From the NCBI RefSeq assembly GCF_002262875.1, contig NZ_NKYE01000002.1, positions 124,001 through 188,000 of the forward strand: DNA of 64,000 bases. Reading direction: 5' to 3'. Source of the DNA: Amycolatopsis antarctica (GTDB taxonomy: Bacteria; Actinomycetota; Actinomycetes; Mycobacteriales; Pseudonocardiaceae). The notes below the pieces were generated by a model that saw nothing but the letters and a program-made list of their open reading frames with translations, ran no database searches and was not told the origin of the DNA. The translations under genes were made by a program, and so were the position numbers. Of this stretch, positions 42,734 to 46,114 are shown piece by piece (within the stretch, counting starts at the first letter, position 1; the number at the start of each line of letters is the position of its first letter).

Positions 42734-43432
42734 TCAGGTGGTCCAGCCGCCCGAGACCGGGATGAGCTGGCCCGCCAGGAAGTCACTGGCACCACTTGCC
42801 AGCGCCAGTGCCAGTTCCGCGGCCTCGTGGCCCTTGCCGAGCCGGCCGGCCGGGATGTCGGCTTCGAACGACTCGCGCACGGACCGGTCCGCGAGCATGT
42901 CCTCGGTGTAGTACATGTTGTTCTCGATGTGGGCCGGGCCGATCGCGTTCACCTGAACGTTGTGCGGCGCCGCTTCGGCGCCGACGACCTGGAGGAAGGC
43001 GTTCTGCGCGCCGCGCGCGGCCGAGTAGATCGACAGGCCGGGTATCGCGCGCTCCGGGGTGGCGCTGGTGATCGCGACGATCTTGCCCGACCCGCGTTCG
43101 AACATCTGCGCAAGCGTGGCGCGCACGATCCGCAGCAGGGGCCAGACCAGCGCGTCGATGTAGCCCCGCACGGCCTCGTCGGTGAACTCGGTGGGTCGCA
43201 CCATCATGCCGGTGACCGGCATCGCCTCCGGTGGCCCGGCGAGATTGGCGACCAGCACGTCTATCCGCCCGCTGCGCGCGACCAGCTCCTCCGGCTCGTC
43301 CGGCCCGGTCAGCTCGCTCTCGTCGGCGAGCACCGTCGCGCCCTCGGCGCGGAACAGTTCGACCACCGGCGGTCCCAGATAGCGGTGCGCGTGGGTGACC
43401 AGCACCCGTCGTCCGTCCAACCTCGAGCTCAT
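42734..43432 (-). CDS. halohydrin dehalogenase-type SDR protein
   Basis: The ATG at 43432 has AGGAG at 8-nt spacing, giving 232 residues. The protein has the SDR fold but lacks the NAD-binding TGxxxGIG motif; in its place is T13-x4-Y18-x-G20. The catalytic triad is S123, Y136 and R140 with the exact S-x12-Y-x3-R spacing of halohydrin dehalogenases, where Arg replaces the SDR Lys. The segment ITSATP before the serine region is identical to HheC as I remember it. These enzymes convert vicinal halohydrins to epoxides and run the reverse with azide, cyanide or nitrite. The neighbour at 43575 is a normal SDR on the opposite strand. An inactive SDR is the main alternative. Confidence 0.85.
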   Translation of the reverse strand: MSSRLDGRRVLVTHAHRYLGPPVVELFRAEGATVLADESELTGPDEPEELVARSGRIDVLVANLAGPPEAMPVTGMMVRPTEFTDEAVRGYIDALVWPLLRIVRATLAQMFERGSGKIVAITSATPERAIPGLSIYSAARGAQNAFLQVVGAEAAPHNVQVNAIGPAHIENNMYYTEDMLADRSVRESFEADIPAGRLGKGHEAAELALALASGASDFLAGQLIPVSGGWTT

Positions 43433-43574
43433 CGAATCACTCCTGGAGATCGTTGCCATGGCGTGACAAACGAGCTTAGAAGGATGACGTCCATCCCGCT
43501 GCGCAGTCCTGTTAGGACATACCCCGCGACGGACGGGCTGCGCCGGTCTGGCGCCCCGTGGCAGGATCAGATCG

Positions 43575-44348
43575 ATGATCGATCCCGGACTGAGGGACAG
43601 GACAGTTCTCGTCACCGGTGGCGCGATGAACATCGGCGCCCAGATTTCCCGAGCGTTCGCAGCACAGGGCTCGCGTGTCGCCGTCCACTACGTGGCGGGC
43701 GCCGCGTCCACGGCGACGGAGCATGTGCGGGCGACCCACGACGAGGTCGACGCGTTCGTCGGGTCATTGCCCGATGCCATCGCCGTGGAGGCGGACTTTC
43801 TCGGGCCCGGTGCGTCGGCGCGATTGCTGGACCAGGTCGAGGCTCGTCTCGGACCCATCGACGTGCTGGTCAACAACGCCGCGCACGCCGAGGACGCGGA
43901 CGCGTTCGACAGCCTCGACGAAGGCGGCGTGGAGCGCACCTTCCGGGTCAACACCGTCGTGCCGACAATGCTGCTGGCAGAGTTCTCCCGCCGGGTTCCC
44001 GCCGACGCGGGCGAAGGATCGAGATGCGTCGTCAACATCTCGACCGATGCGGCGCGGGGGTTCCCGGGACAAGTCGCCTACGGTGCCTCGAAAGCCGCGC
44101 TCGACTCGCTCACGCGCGGTGCGGCCATGGATCTCGGGCCGCGGGTCCGCGTCAACGGTATCGCGCCCGGGCCGGTGCAGACGGGCTGGATGAGCGAGGA
44201 GGTGATCCGCGCCGTGACTCCGGCCATCCCGCTGGGCCGGGTGGGCGACCCGAGTGACATCGCCGACGCGGCGGTCTTCCTGGCCTCCCACCAAGCCCGC
44301 TGGATCACCGGGCAGATCATCCAGGTCGCCGGAGGCCACTGGCTCTGA
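43575..44348 (+). CDS. short-chain dehydrogenase/reductase
   Basis: This 257-residue classical SDR has VLVTGGAMNIGAQISRAFAAQG for NAD(P) binding, VNNAAH, NISTDAARGFPGQVAYGASKAALDSLTRGAAMDL with the Ser-Tyr-Lys triad, and a C-terminal GQIIQVAGG. It reduces or oxidises a carbonyl/alcohol. It is divergent from the halohydrin dehalogenase gene with 142 bp between the starts. CAGGAT ends 7 nt before the ATG, so the transcript may be leaderless. The substrate is unknown. Confidence 0.92.
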   Translation: MIDPGLRDRTVLVTGGAMNIGAQISRAFAAQGSRVAVHYVAGAASTATEHVRATHDEVDAFVGSLPDAIAVEADFLGPGASARLLDQVEARLGPIDVLVNNAAHAEDADAFDSLDEGGVERTFRVNTVVPTMLLAEFSRRVPADAGEGSRCVVNISTDAARGFPGQVAYGASKAALDSLTRGAAMDLGPRVRVNGIAPGPVQTGWMSEEVIRAVTPAIPLGRVGDPSDIADAAVFLASHQARWITGQIIQVAGGHWL

Positions 44349-44522: not shown

Positions 44523-45413
44523 TCAGCGCCGGCTACGGCCGGCGAGGGAGCGGACGAAGTCCGCGATCTCCATCGGTTTCTCCTCGGCCATGAAATGGCC
44601 CGCCCCAATGGGCTCGAACGTCAGGTCCGGTGCCCACGCGCGCCAGAGCGCGGCGGCGTCGAAGCCCAGTCGGGCCCCCCAGTCCTGGGAAACGACGGCC
44701 ACCGGCATGTCGAGTGTCCTGCCGGCCTCCCGGTCCGCGCGGTCCATGTCGAGGTCGATGCTCGCGGTGGCCCGGTAGTCGGCGACGATGGAGTCCACCG
44801 CGTGCACGGAGCTGTCGACGTAGTGGCGGCGGACCTCGGGGGTGAAGGCCGTGCCCTCGGTGTCCCAGGCGTCCAGGAACGAGCCGAAGAACTCGGGCGC
44901 GACCGCCCTGATCATCTTTTCCGGAAGTCCCGCGGGCTGCGCCATGAGGTACAGGTGCCAGGCCACCTTGGCCTCGGCCCCGCGCAGGACCTCCCAGGTG
45001 TCGAGCGTGGGCAACACGTCGAGGATTCCGAGGTACCGCACGGCGCGCGGGTGGTCGAGTCCGGCGCGGACGGCGACGAGGGCGCCCCGGTCGTGACCGA
45101 CCAGGCCGAAACGTTCGTGCCCGAGCGCTTCGGCCACGCGCAGGACGTCCAGGGCCATGGTCCTCTTCGAGTAGGTCTGCGGTCCCTGCTCCGCGGGCTT
45201 TCCACTCTGCCCGTACCCGCGCAGGTCCGGAACGATCACCGTGTGCCGGGCGCGGAGCTCCCGAGCGACCTGGTGCCACATGTAGTGGGTCTGCGGGAAA
45301 CCGTGCAGGAGTACCACGGCGGGACCGGTGCCCGCGACGGCGACGTTCAGGTCCACGCCCTGCTCACCGGGCAGGGTCCGGTACTCGAATTCGGGGATGG
45401 TCAACGGGTTCAT
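44523..45413 (-). CDS. alpha/beta hydrolase, haloacetate dehalogenase / epoxide hydrolase family
   Basis: The ATG at 45413 overlaps the TetR stop (ATGA), giving 296 residues. HGFPQTHYMWHQVA, DLRGYGQSGKP, GHDRGALVA with the nucleophile D108, and GAGHFMAEE with the catalytic His follow the fluoroacetate-dehalogenase/epoxide-hydrolase order. R109 after the nucleophile is kept. The second carboxylate-binding Arg (RGxR) is Leu112, and the halide-binding Trp after the conserved His153 is Leu154. It is therefore probably not a true fluoroacetate dehalogenase; an epoxide hydrolase or an altered dehalogenase is more likely. It is co-transcribed with its TetR regulator. Confidence 0.9.
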   Translation of the reverse strand: MNPLTIPEFEYRTLPGEQGVDLNVAVAGTGPAVVLLHGFPQTHYMWHQVARELRARHTVIVPDLRGYGQSGKPAEQGPQTYSKRTMALDVLRVAEALGHERFGLVGHDRGALVAVRAGLDHPRAVRYLGILDVLPTLDTWEVLRGAEAKVAWHLYLMAQPAGLPEKMIRAVAPEFFGSFLDAWDTEGTAFTPEVRRHYVDSSVHAVDSIVADYRATASIDLDMDRADREAGRTLDMPVAVVSQDWGARLGFDAAALWRAWAPDLTFEPIGAGHFMAEEKPMEIADFVRSLAGRSRR

Positions 45414-46114
45414 TGAGACTCCTCCGGAGATGACGTGCCGGCCGAGGGGGTGGGGTGGCCGGAGAAGATGCCGGCCGGGGGTTCGTGGTGGAGCCGGGCC
45501 GTGGCGCGCAGGGCCGGGATCAGGATCGAGTCGACGAGAGCTTCGAGATAGCCGGTGTCGATCTCCAGCGCGTTGAGCCGGCGGAGCAGGATCGCGGCGC
45601 CCGTCACCTCTTCGTAGGGAAAGGGGTGCACGCCCTCGGGAAGCTCCCCGCGGCGGACCGCGGCCTCGATGACGGTGGCGGGCAAGCGAGCGCCGGTCGG
45701 GCCGACCGCTCGCTCTATCTCCTCGCACAGCTCCGGGTCCTCGAGTCCCGCCTGGAGGAGCAGCACCGCGGCCTGGGCGTCCGCGGAGCACATGGACCGG
45801 ACGAGGCGCCGGCACAGCGCGAGCAGATCCCCGCGCAGGCTGCCGGTGTCGATCTCGTCCGGCCCGTCGCGGCGGGCGGGGCCCGCCTTCACGGCGGCGA
45901 CCACCATGTCCCGCTTGCCCGCCCACCGCCGGTATAGCGTGGCCTTCGACGCCCCTGCCCGGCGCGCGACCTCCTCGAAGGTCACGCCCTCGTAGCCACG
46001 CTCGGCGAGCAGCGCGGTCACGACCGCGAGGATCTCGCTCTCCCGCCGGGCGTCCCGGGGGCGCCCGGCGTGGCCGGCGGGCGGACCGTTATCGGCATAG
46101 TTTCGATACGACAC
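45410..46114 (-). CDS. TetR family transcriptional regulator
   Basis: The 234-residue protein starts at GTG 46114, which lies inside a 25-bp palindrome with a -10-like TACGGT 7 nt upstream. The HTH is RRESEILAVVTALLAERGYEGVTFEEVARRAGASKATLYRRWAGKRDMV (residues about 25-72). The remainder is the ligand domain. It is coupled to the hydrolase gene by ATGA and probably represses both from its own operator. The C-terminal 30 residues are Pro- and Ser-rich and unlikely to be structured. Confidence 0.92.
   Translation of the reverse strand: MSYRNYADNGPPAGHAGRPRDARRESEILAVVTALLAERGYEGVTFEEVARRAGASKATLYRRWAGKRDMVVAAVKAGPARRDGPDEIDTGSLRGDLLALCRRLVRSMCSADAQAAVLLLQAGLEDPELCEEIERAVGPTGARLPATVIEAAVRRGELPEGVHPFPYEEVTGAAILLRRLNALEIDTGYLEALVDSILIPALRATARLHHEPPAGIFSGHPTPSAGTSSPEESQ

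Follow-up and report, generated by a model that had tools for sequence, protein, structure and literature searches.

The 64,000-nucleotide stretch of Amycolatopsis antarctica DNA analysed here (contig NZ_NKYE01000002.1; hereafter the window) contains a gene that, judging from its sequence, very probably encodes a cofactor-free halohydrin dehalogenase (HHDH) from the part of this family that resembles subtypes B and D. The gene occupies positions 42734..43432 on the minus strand, and its product of 232 residues combines a nucleophile-pocket motif (T13/Y18/G20) with a catalytic triad (S123/Y136/R140). A first-pass annotation had proposed this identity, which is supported by motifs, sequence neighbours, phylogenetic trees and a fold search, with the enzyme activity itself being a prediction. 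The protein appears to be a divergent new member of a known enzyme family. Actinobacterial HHDHs have long been known, among them HheA, HheA2, HheB and HheB2 of the genera Corynebacterium, Arthrobacter and Mycobacterium (PMC4989007), so an HHDH in an actinomycete is no surprise; the new point would be the placement in a small and rare side branch of the family.

The gene coordinates given at first pass are correct; the strand, which had been left unstated, is minus, and the plus strand of the same interval (42734-43432) reads as a different open frame. The start codon is an ATG at 43432 with an AGGAG ribosome site 7 bases upstream. This site lies in the 142-base intergenic region (43433..43574) between the HHDH gene and a divergent short-chain dehydrogenase (SDR) gene, in which a search for a sigma-70-like match found none. 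GC content by codon position is 0.71/0.49/0.91, and the values of four neighbouring genes are close to these.

Two HHDH fingerprint motifs have been published (PMC11976700, PMC4989007), of which motif 1 reads T-x4-F/Y-x-G (PMC11976700), and 19 enzymes selected in a published two-motif search were confirmed to have true HHDH activity (PMC4989007). The window protein contains motif 1 as T13-x4-Y18-x-G20 (THAHRYLG, residues 13-20) and motif 2 as S123-x12-Y136-x3-R140, with all six residues at the positions claimed earlier. Residues 121-126 are identical to the ITSATP segment of HheC (1pwx), as had been suggested. A glycine-rich motif (T-G/A-x3-G/A-x-G) is absent from the first 45 residues, and both members of the classical SDR pair (i.e. 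TGxxxGxG and YxxxK) are missing from the protein. When the protein was shuffled, both HHDH motifs occurred in 1 of 20,000 shuffles, with motif 1 sought within the first 45 residues. As a control, we inspected SDRs of the same genome, taking the best 30 of 65 PF13561 matches (two SDRs of the window included) and loosening the glycine pattern to T[GA]x5G; one protein (L035) was unreadable at a contig end, which left 29. Both SDR motifs are present in 26 of these, the first only in one and neither in two, while either HHDH motif is found in 0/29.

We infer the catalysis, halide pocket and substrate range of the window protein, in which S123 would bind a vicinal haloalcohol through its hydroxyl. 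By homology with HheC (PMC4989007), Y136, whose pKa would be depressed by R140, would take the hydroxyl proton, and the freed oxygen would displace the halide to give an epoxide and the halide. The T13-Y18-G20 segment, which would stand in place of the NAD-binding glycine loop, would line the pocket that receives the leaving halide. In the reverse direction, halide or another small anion (azide, cyanide or nitrite) would open epoxides.

Sequence and fold searches both place the protein among HHDHs. The best PDB sequence match is HheD2 (7b73, 4.8e-45), followed by an HheB mutant (5b12, 2.3e-44), wild-type HheB (4zd6, 3.7e-44) and an HheD8 triple mutant (8xxb, 1.7e-41); the following three matches (6a41, 7wkq and 5kvc) are dehalogenases too. 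The first chain named as a reductase (1o5i, 1.3e-19) is more than 20 orders of magnitude weaker than the best HHDHs, and HheG (5o30, 1e-17) is also among the weaker matches. Identity to the window protein is 43% for HheB, 42% for HheD8, 40% for HheD2, 31% for HheC and 27% for HheA2, so the nearest characterized enzymes are of the HheB/HheD type (40-43% identical). A model predicted from a five-row alignment has moderate overall confidence (mean pLDDT 73.4, pTM 0.77) and is weak at the active-site loops, pLDDT falling below 50 at residues 126-130 and 167-177, the expected site of the halide pocket. In a Foldseek search with this model, whose ranking draws on sequence as well as structure, HheD2, HheB and HheD8 account for all nine best chains, although the fits are loose (TM 0.75-0.77, rmsd 5.6-6.2); ordinary SDRs come in at rank 10, ahead of HheG at rank 15.

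We compared the protein with its relatives in phylogenetic trees, in which the named HHDHs were of subtypes A to D. The window protein forms a clade with five relatives, from Actinomycetospora soli, a Rubrobacter metagenome-assembled genome (MAG) and three further genomes (G013, G082 and G212). Support for this clade is 97/99, with 95/94 in the tree without SDRs and 100/99 in the tree without long branches. The window protein is 68-77% identical to these relatives, with the Actinomycetospora soli protein at 77% and the Rubrobacter MAG protein at 68%, and 6/6 members retain all six residues of the motifs. HheB, HheD2, HheD8 and a Novosphingobium plasmid protein form a group to which the clade does not belong and whose support is only moderate (93/91, with 87/87 and 87/86 in the other trees). 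Within that group HheB pairs with the Novosphingobium protein and then joins HheD2 and HheD8, while the window clade stands apart; in these trees it joins neither HheB apart from subtype D, as a subtype B member would, nor HheD2 and HheD8 apart from subtype B. HHDH subtypes are stated to share less than 30% identity (PMC4989007), a cut-off that we did not apply because HheB and HheD2 came out at 46%; HheD2 and HheD8, each other's closest, share 61%.

The members of the clade also share two features of sequence. First, the stretch between residues 63 and 97 holds 35 residues in clade members and 38 in G082, compared with 29 in HheB, 28 in both HheD2 and HheD8, 29 in HheC and 31 in HheA2, i.e. 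six to ten extra residues, of which six or seven over HheB, HheD2 and HheD8 and more in G082. This length is not unique within the superfamily, because an ordinary SDR (L011) has 36 residues here. If the extra residues lie beside the substrate entry, as we infer, they suggest a substrate site unlike those of HheB and HheD. Second, the pocket segment reads GPAH..NNMYYT in the clade and AQN/AQH..YFP/YFW in HheB, HheD2 and HheD8; by comparison with HheC, these positions would take part in halide and substrate binding.

Comparison with individual enzymes gives the same picture. HheB (from Corynebacterium sp. N-1074), a chain of 227 residues that ranks near the top of both the sequence and the fold search, resembles the window protein in having both motifs and the motif-1 tyrosine, but it lacks the ITSATP strand and the GPAH and MYYT of the pocket segment, has the shorter 63-97 stretch and lies on a separate tree branch. 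HheD2 and HheD8 share both motifs but have phenylalanine as the motif-1 aromatic residue and AQN..YFP in the pocket segment, besides their shorter 63-97 stretch. Like the window protein, HheC (from Agrobacterium radiobacter AD1) has both motifs and an ITSATP strand, and its pocket segment likewise begins with AIGP. By contrast, it is 22 residues longer between positions 34 and 58, carries Trp249 in an extension of its C-terminus (PMC4989007) that is missing from the window protein, and forms with HheA2 a long separate branch in the trees.

A tentative reading, to which we give somewhat less than an even chance, is that the clade represents a further HHDH subtype, so far undescribed, alongside B and D. 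Its longer loop and changed halide/substrate segment would then entail another natural substrate, and actinobacteria would carry it as a rare accessory gene. In our literature search, outside which most subscription journals lay, no paper on halohydrin dehalogenases with HheE and HheF, or with Pseudonocardia, was found. HHDHs turn haloalcohols into epoxides and back and serve in the synthesis of chiral epoxides and beta-substituted alcohols; enzymes with new substrate scope are sought. At 43% identity to HheB and 40% to HheD2, the window branch is slightly further off than these two are from each other, which makes it a sensible candidate for expression. It would also bear on the natural role of HHDHs, which a 2016 review leaves open in its account of the family (PMC4989007).

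That the clade is tight and has extra residues and a pocket signature of its own would also suit a cofactor-free enzyme of the SDR fold that shares the HHDH active site while its natural reaction is another one (e.g. an isomerase or lyase step, or the opening of epoxides by a different anion) and dehalogenation is a side activity. Neighbourhoods that differ among the clade members, except for the sister pair G082/G212, also speak for such an enzyme. However, conservation of all six motif residues throughout the clade argues against it, and we consider it rather unlikely.

The gene is rare in the actinobacterial samples searched, as the first-pass annotation had held of such enzymes. Matches at 1e-25, own genome included, are present in 1/80 genomes of the genus, 5/297 of the family, 4/396 of a phylum sample and 2/394 of a class sample, counts that include the more distant, non-clade proteins of G452, G327 and G1037. 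A search of genome contigs gave three relatives, i.e. those of A. soli and the Rubrobacter MAG and one 26% identical protein with ordinary SDR motifs. The Rubrobacter MAG gene (L010:1958-2656) contains one in-frame TAG at a position where its relatives have Trp, which is either a nonsense change or an assembly error.

The surroundings of the HHDH genes revealed no conserved metabolic neighbourhood in the genomes compared. In A. soli, G082, G212, G327 and the Rubrobacter MAG, for which gene calls are rough and part of the genes was scanned, the scanned neighbours belong not to alpha/beta hydrolases but to LuxR, dynamin-like, RF3, SDR, PEP mutase, glyoxalase, GMC and aldehyde dehydrogenase, zinc alcohol dehydrogenase, TetR, AraC, Rieske oxygenase, RapZ, GST and UvrC families, and four scanned genes matched no family. 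The HHDH gene most likely serves the turnover of haloalcohols or epoxides as an accessory gene of scattered occurrence. A partner encoded next to it was also considered. The divergent neighbour (43575..44348, plus strand) is an ordinary NAD(P)-type SDR with TGGAMNIG and YGASK; it was rejected as an HHDH partner, since at 1e-40 it has matches in 2/8 HHDH-bearing genomes tried, its own being one and the Rubrobacter MAG the other, where the match is partial (48%) and lies on a different contig. A role in secondary metabolism was also rejected, with no link found between the window and a paper on largimycins, a study that infers an HHDH-type step and by its own account finds no HHDH homologue in the producer genome (PMC9396626).

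Beyond the SDR gene, the window contains an alpha/beta hydrolase gene (44523..45413, minus strand) with an Asp nucleophile elbow (GHDRG), of the fluoroacetate dehalogenase/'probable epoxide hydrolase' group. Its start overlaps by 4 bases a TetR-type regulator gene (45410..46114, minus strand), with which it is likely co-transcribed. The HHDH could make an epoxide that this hydrolase opens, a two-gene pathway that we regard as improbable. In its favour, at least 3/7 genomes (own, G013 and G452) have an alpha/beta hydrolase gene no more than 1.1 kb from the HHDH-like gene, for which a chance estimate made after the pattern was seen is 0.003; in G013 the hydrolase gene is ∼370 bases downstream. 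The HHDH-like gene of plasmid pSA2 is likewise preceded, 11 bases before it, by an epoxide hydrolase gene, and the neighbour in G452 is haloalkane dehalogenase-like. Within the close clade, however, a hydrolase neighbour occurs in at least 2/5 handled genomes (estimate 0.02), and the similarity between these two hydrolases is only remote (35% over 109-112 residues). The window hydrolase also has Leu in place of both the second elbow Arg and the lid Trp of 9c9f and 4bat, which makes its activity unsure; it is perhaps an epoxide hydrolase or an esterase. Moreover, relatives of the hydrolase (42-63% identical, E up to 1e-60) are present in 64/80 genomes of the genus, own included, while of these 80 only the own genome has the HHDH. 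We give the pathway low weight because 63/79 other congeners have such relatives without an HHDH, and the hydrolase is probably no dedicated partner of the HHDH. Five of the relatives were examined and lie in other gene contexts; of 16 window query proteins, these congeneric stretches share only the hydrolase, weak LuxR-type matches and, once, a 35% SDR match, and comparing them for an empty site showed no insertion site.

It is very improbable that the window protein is instead an SDR oxidoreductase that depends on NAD(P) and merely has an atypical active site, given that THAHRYLG replaces TGxxxGxG and Arg the catalytic Lys. Pfam and NCBIfam do report general SDR families alone (e.g. adh_short_C2, 6.6e-27), as such families match the protein because HHDHs sit in the SDR superfamily, and some NCBIfam SDR profiles extend to its N-terminus, aligning from residue 3 or 6 (e.g. 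NF005559 from residue 6). On the other hand, the PF13561 match starts only at profile position 63, and of the 25 NCBIfam matches listed (of 189) none reaches its curated cut-off. The stretch between positions 34 and 58 holds 25 residues, against 47-62 in three SDRs compared. This short stretch is common to HheB, HheD2 and HheD8, but it is no mark of HHDHs, because HheC and HheA2 have 47 residues here.

The more distant relatives differ in motifs and surroundings. The G452 protein (L022) is 46-47% identical to the window protein and has both motifs, motif 2 by way of the second Ser of an SSS run; its gene is divergent to a haloalkane dehalogenase-like gene (6f9o, 4.5e-78), and the two (together L022:3417-5183, C83) may form a two-step dehalogenation pair. 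The G327 protein (L023, 7253-7927; 37-40%) misses motif 2, with a Ser-Tyr spacing one residue longer, and its gene adjoins a zinc alcohol dehydrogenase gene, with TetR and Rieske oxygenase genes nearby. In the Novosphingobium resinovorum plasmid protein (L025; 44-45%), Ser replaces the motif-1 Thr. Its gene, annotated merely as 'SDR family oxidoreductase', is paired with an upstream gene for an EHN-type epoxide hydrolase (together L025:6805-8678) on pSA2, a conjugative plasmid on which dehydrogenase and other catabolic-looking genes surround the pair. The other match of the class sample (L026, G1037:C1:436429-436980; 37%), which is outside the trees, contains THATRYAG and S-x12-Y-x3-R and by eye looks HheA/HheC-like.
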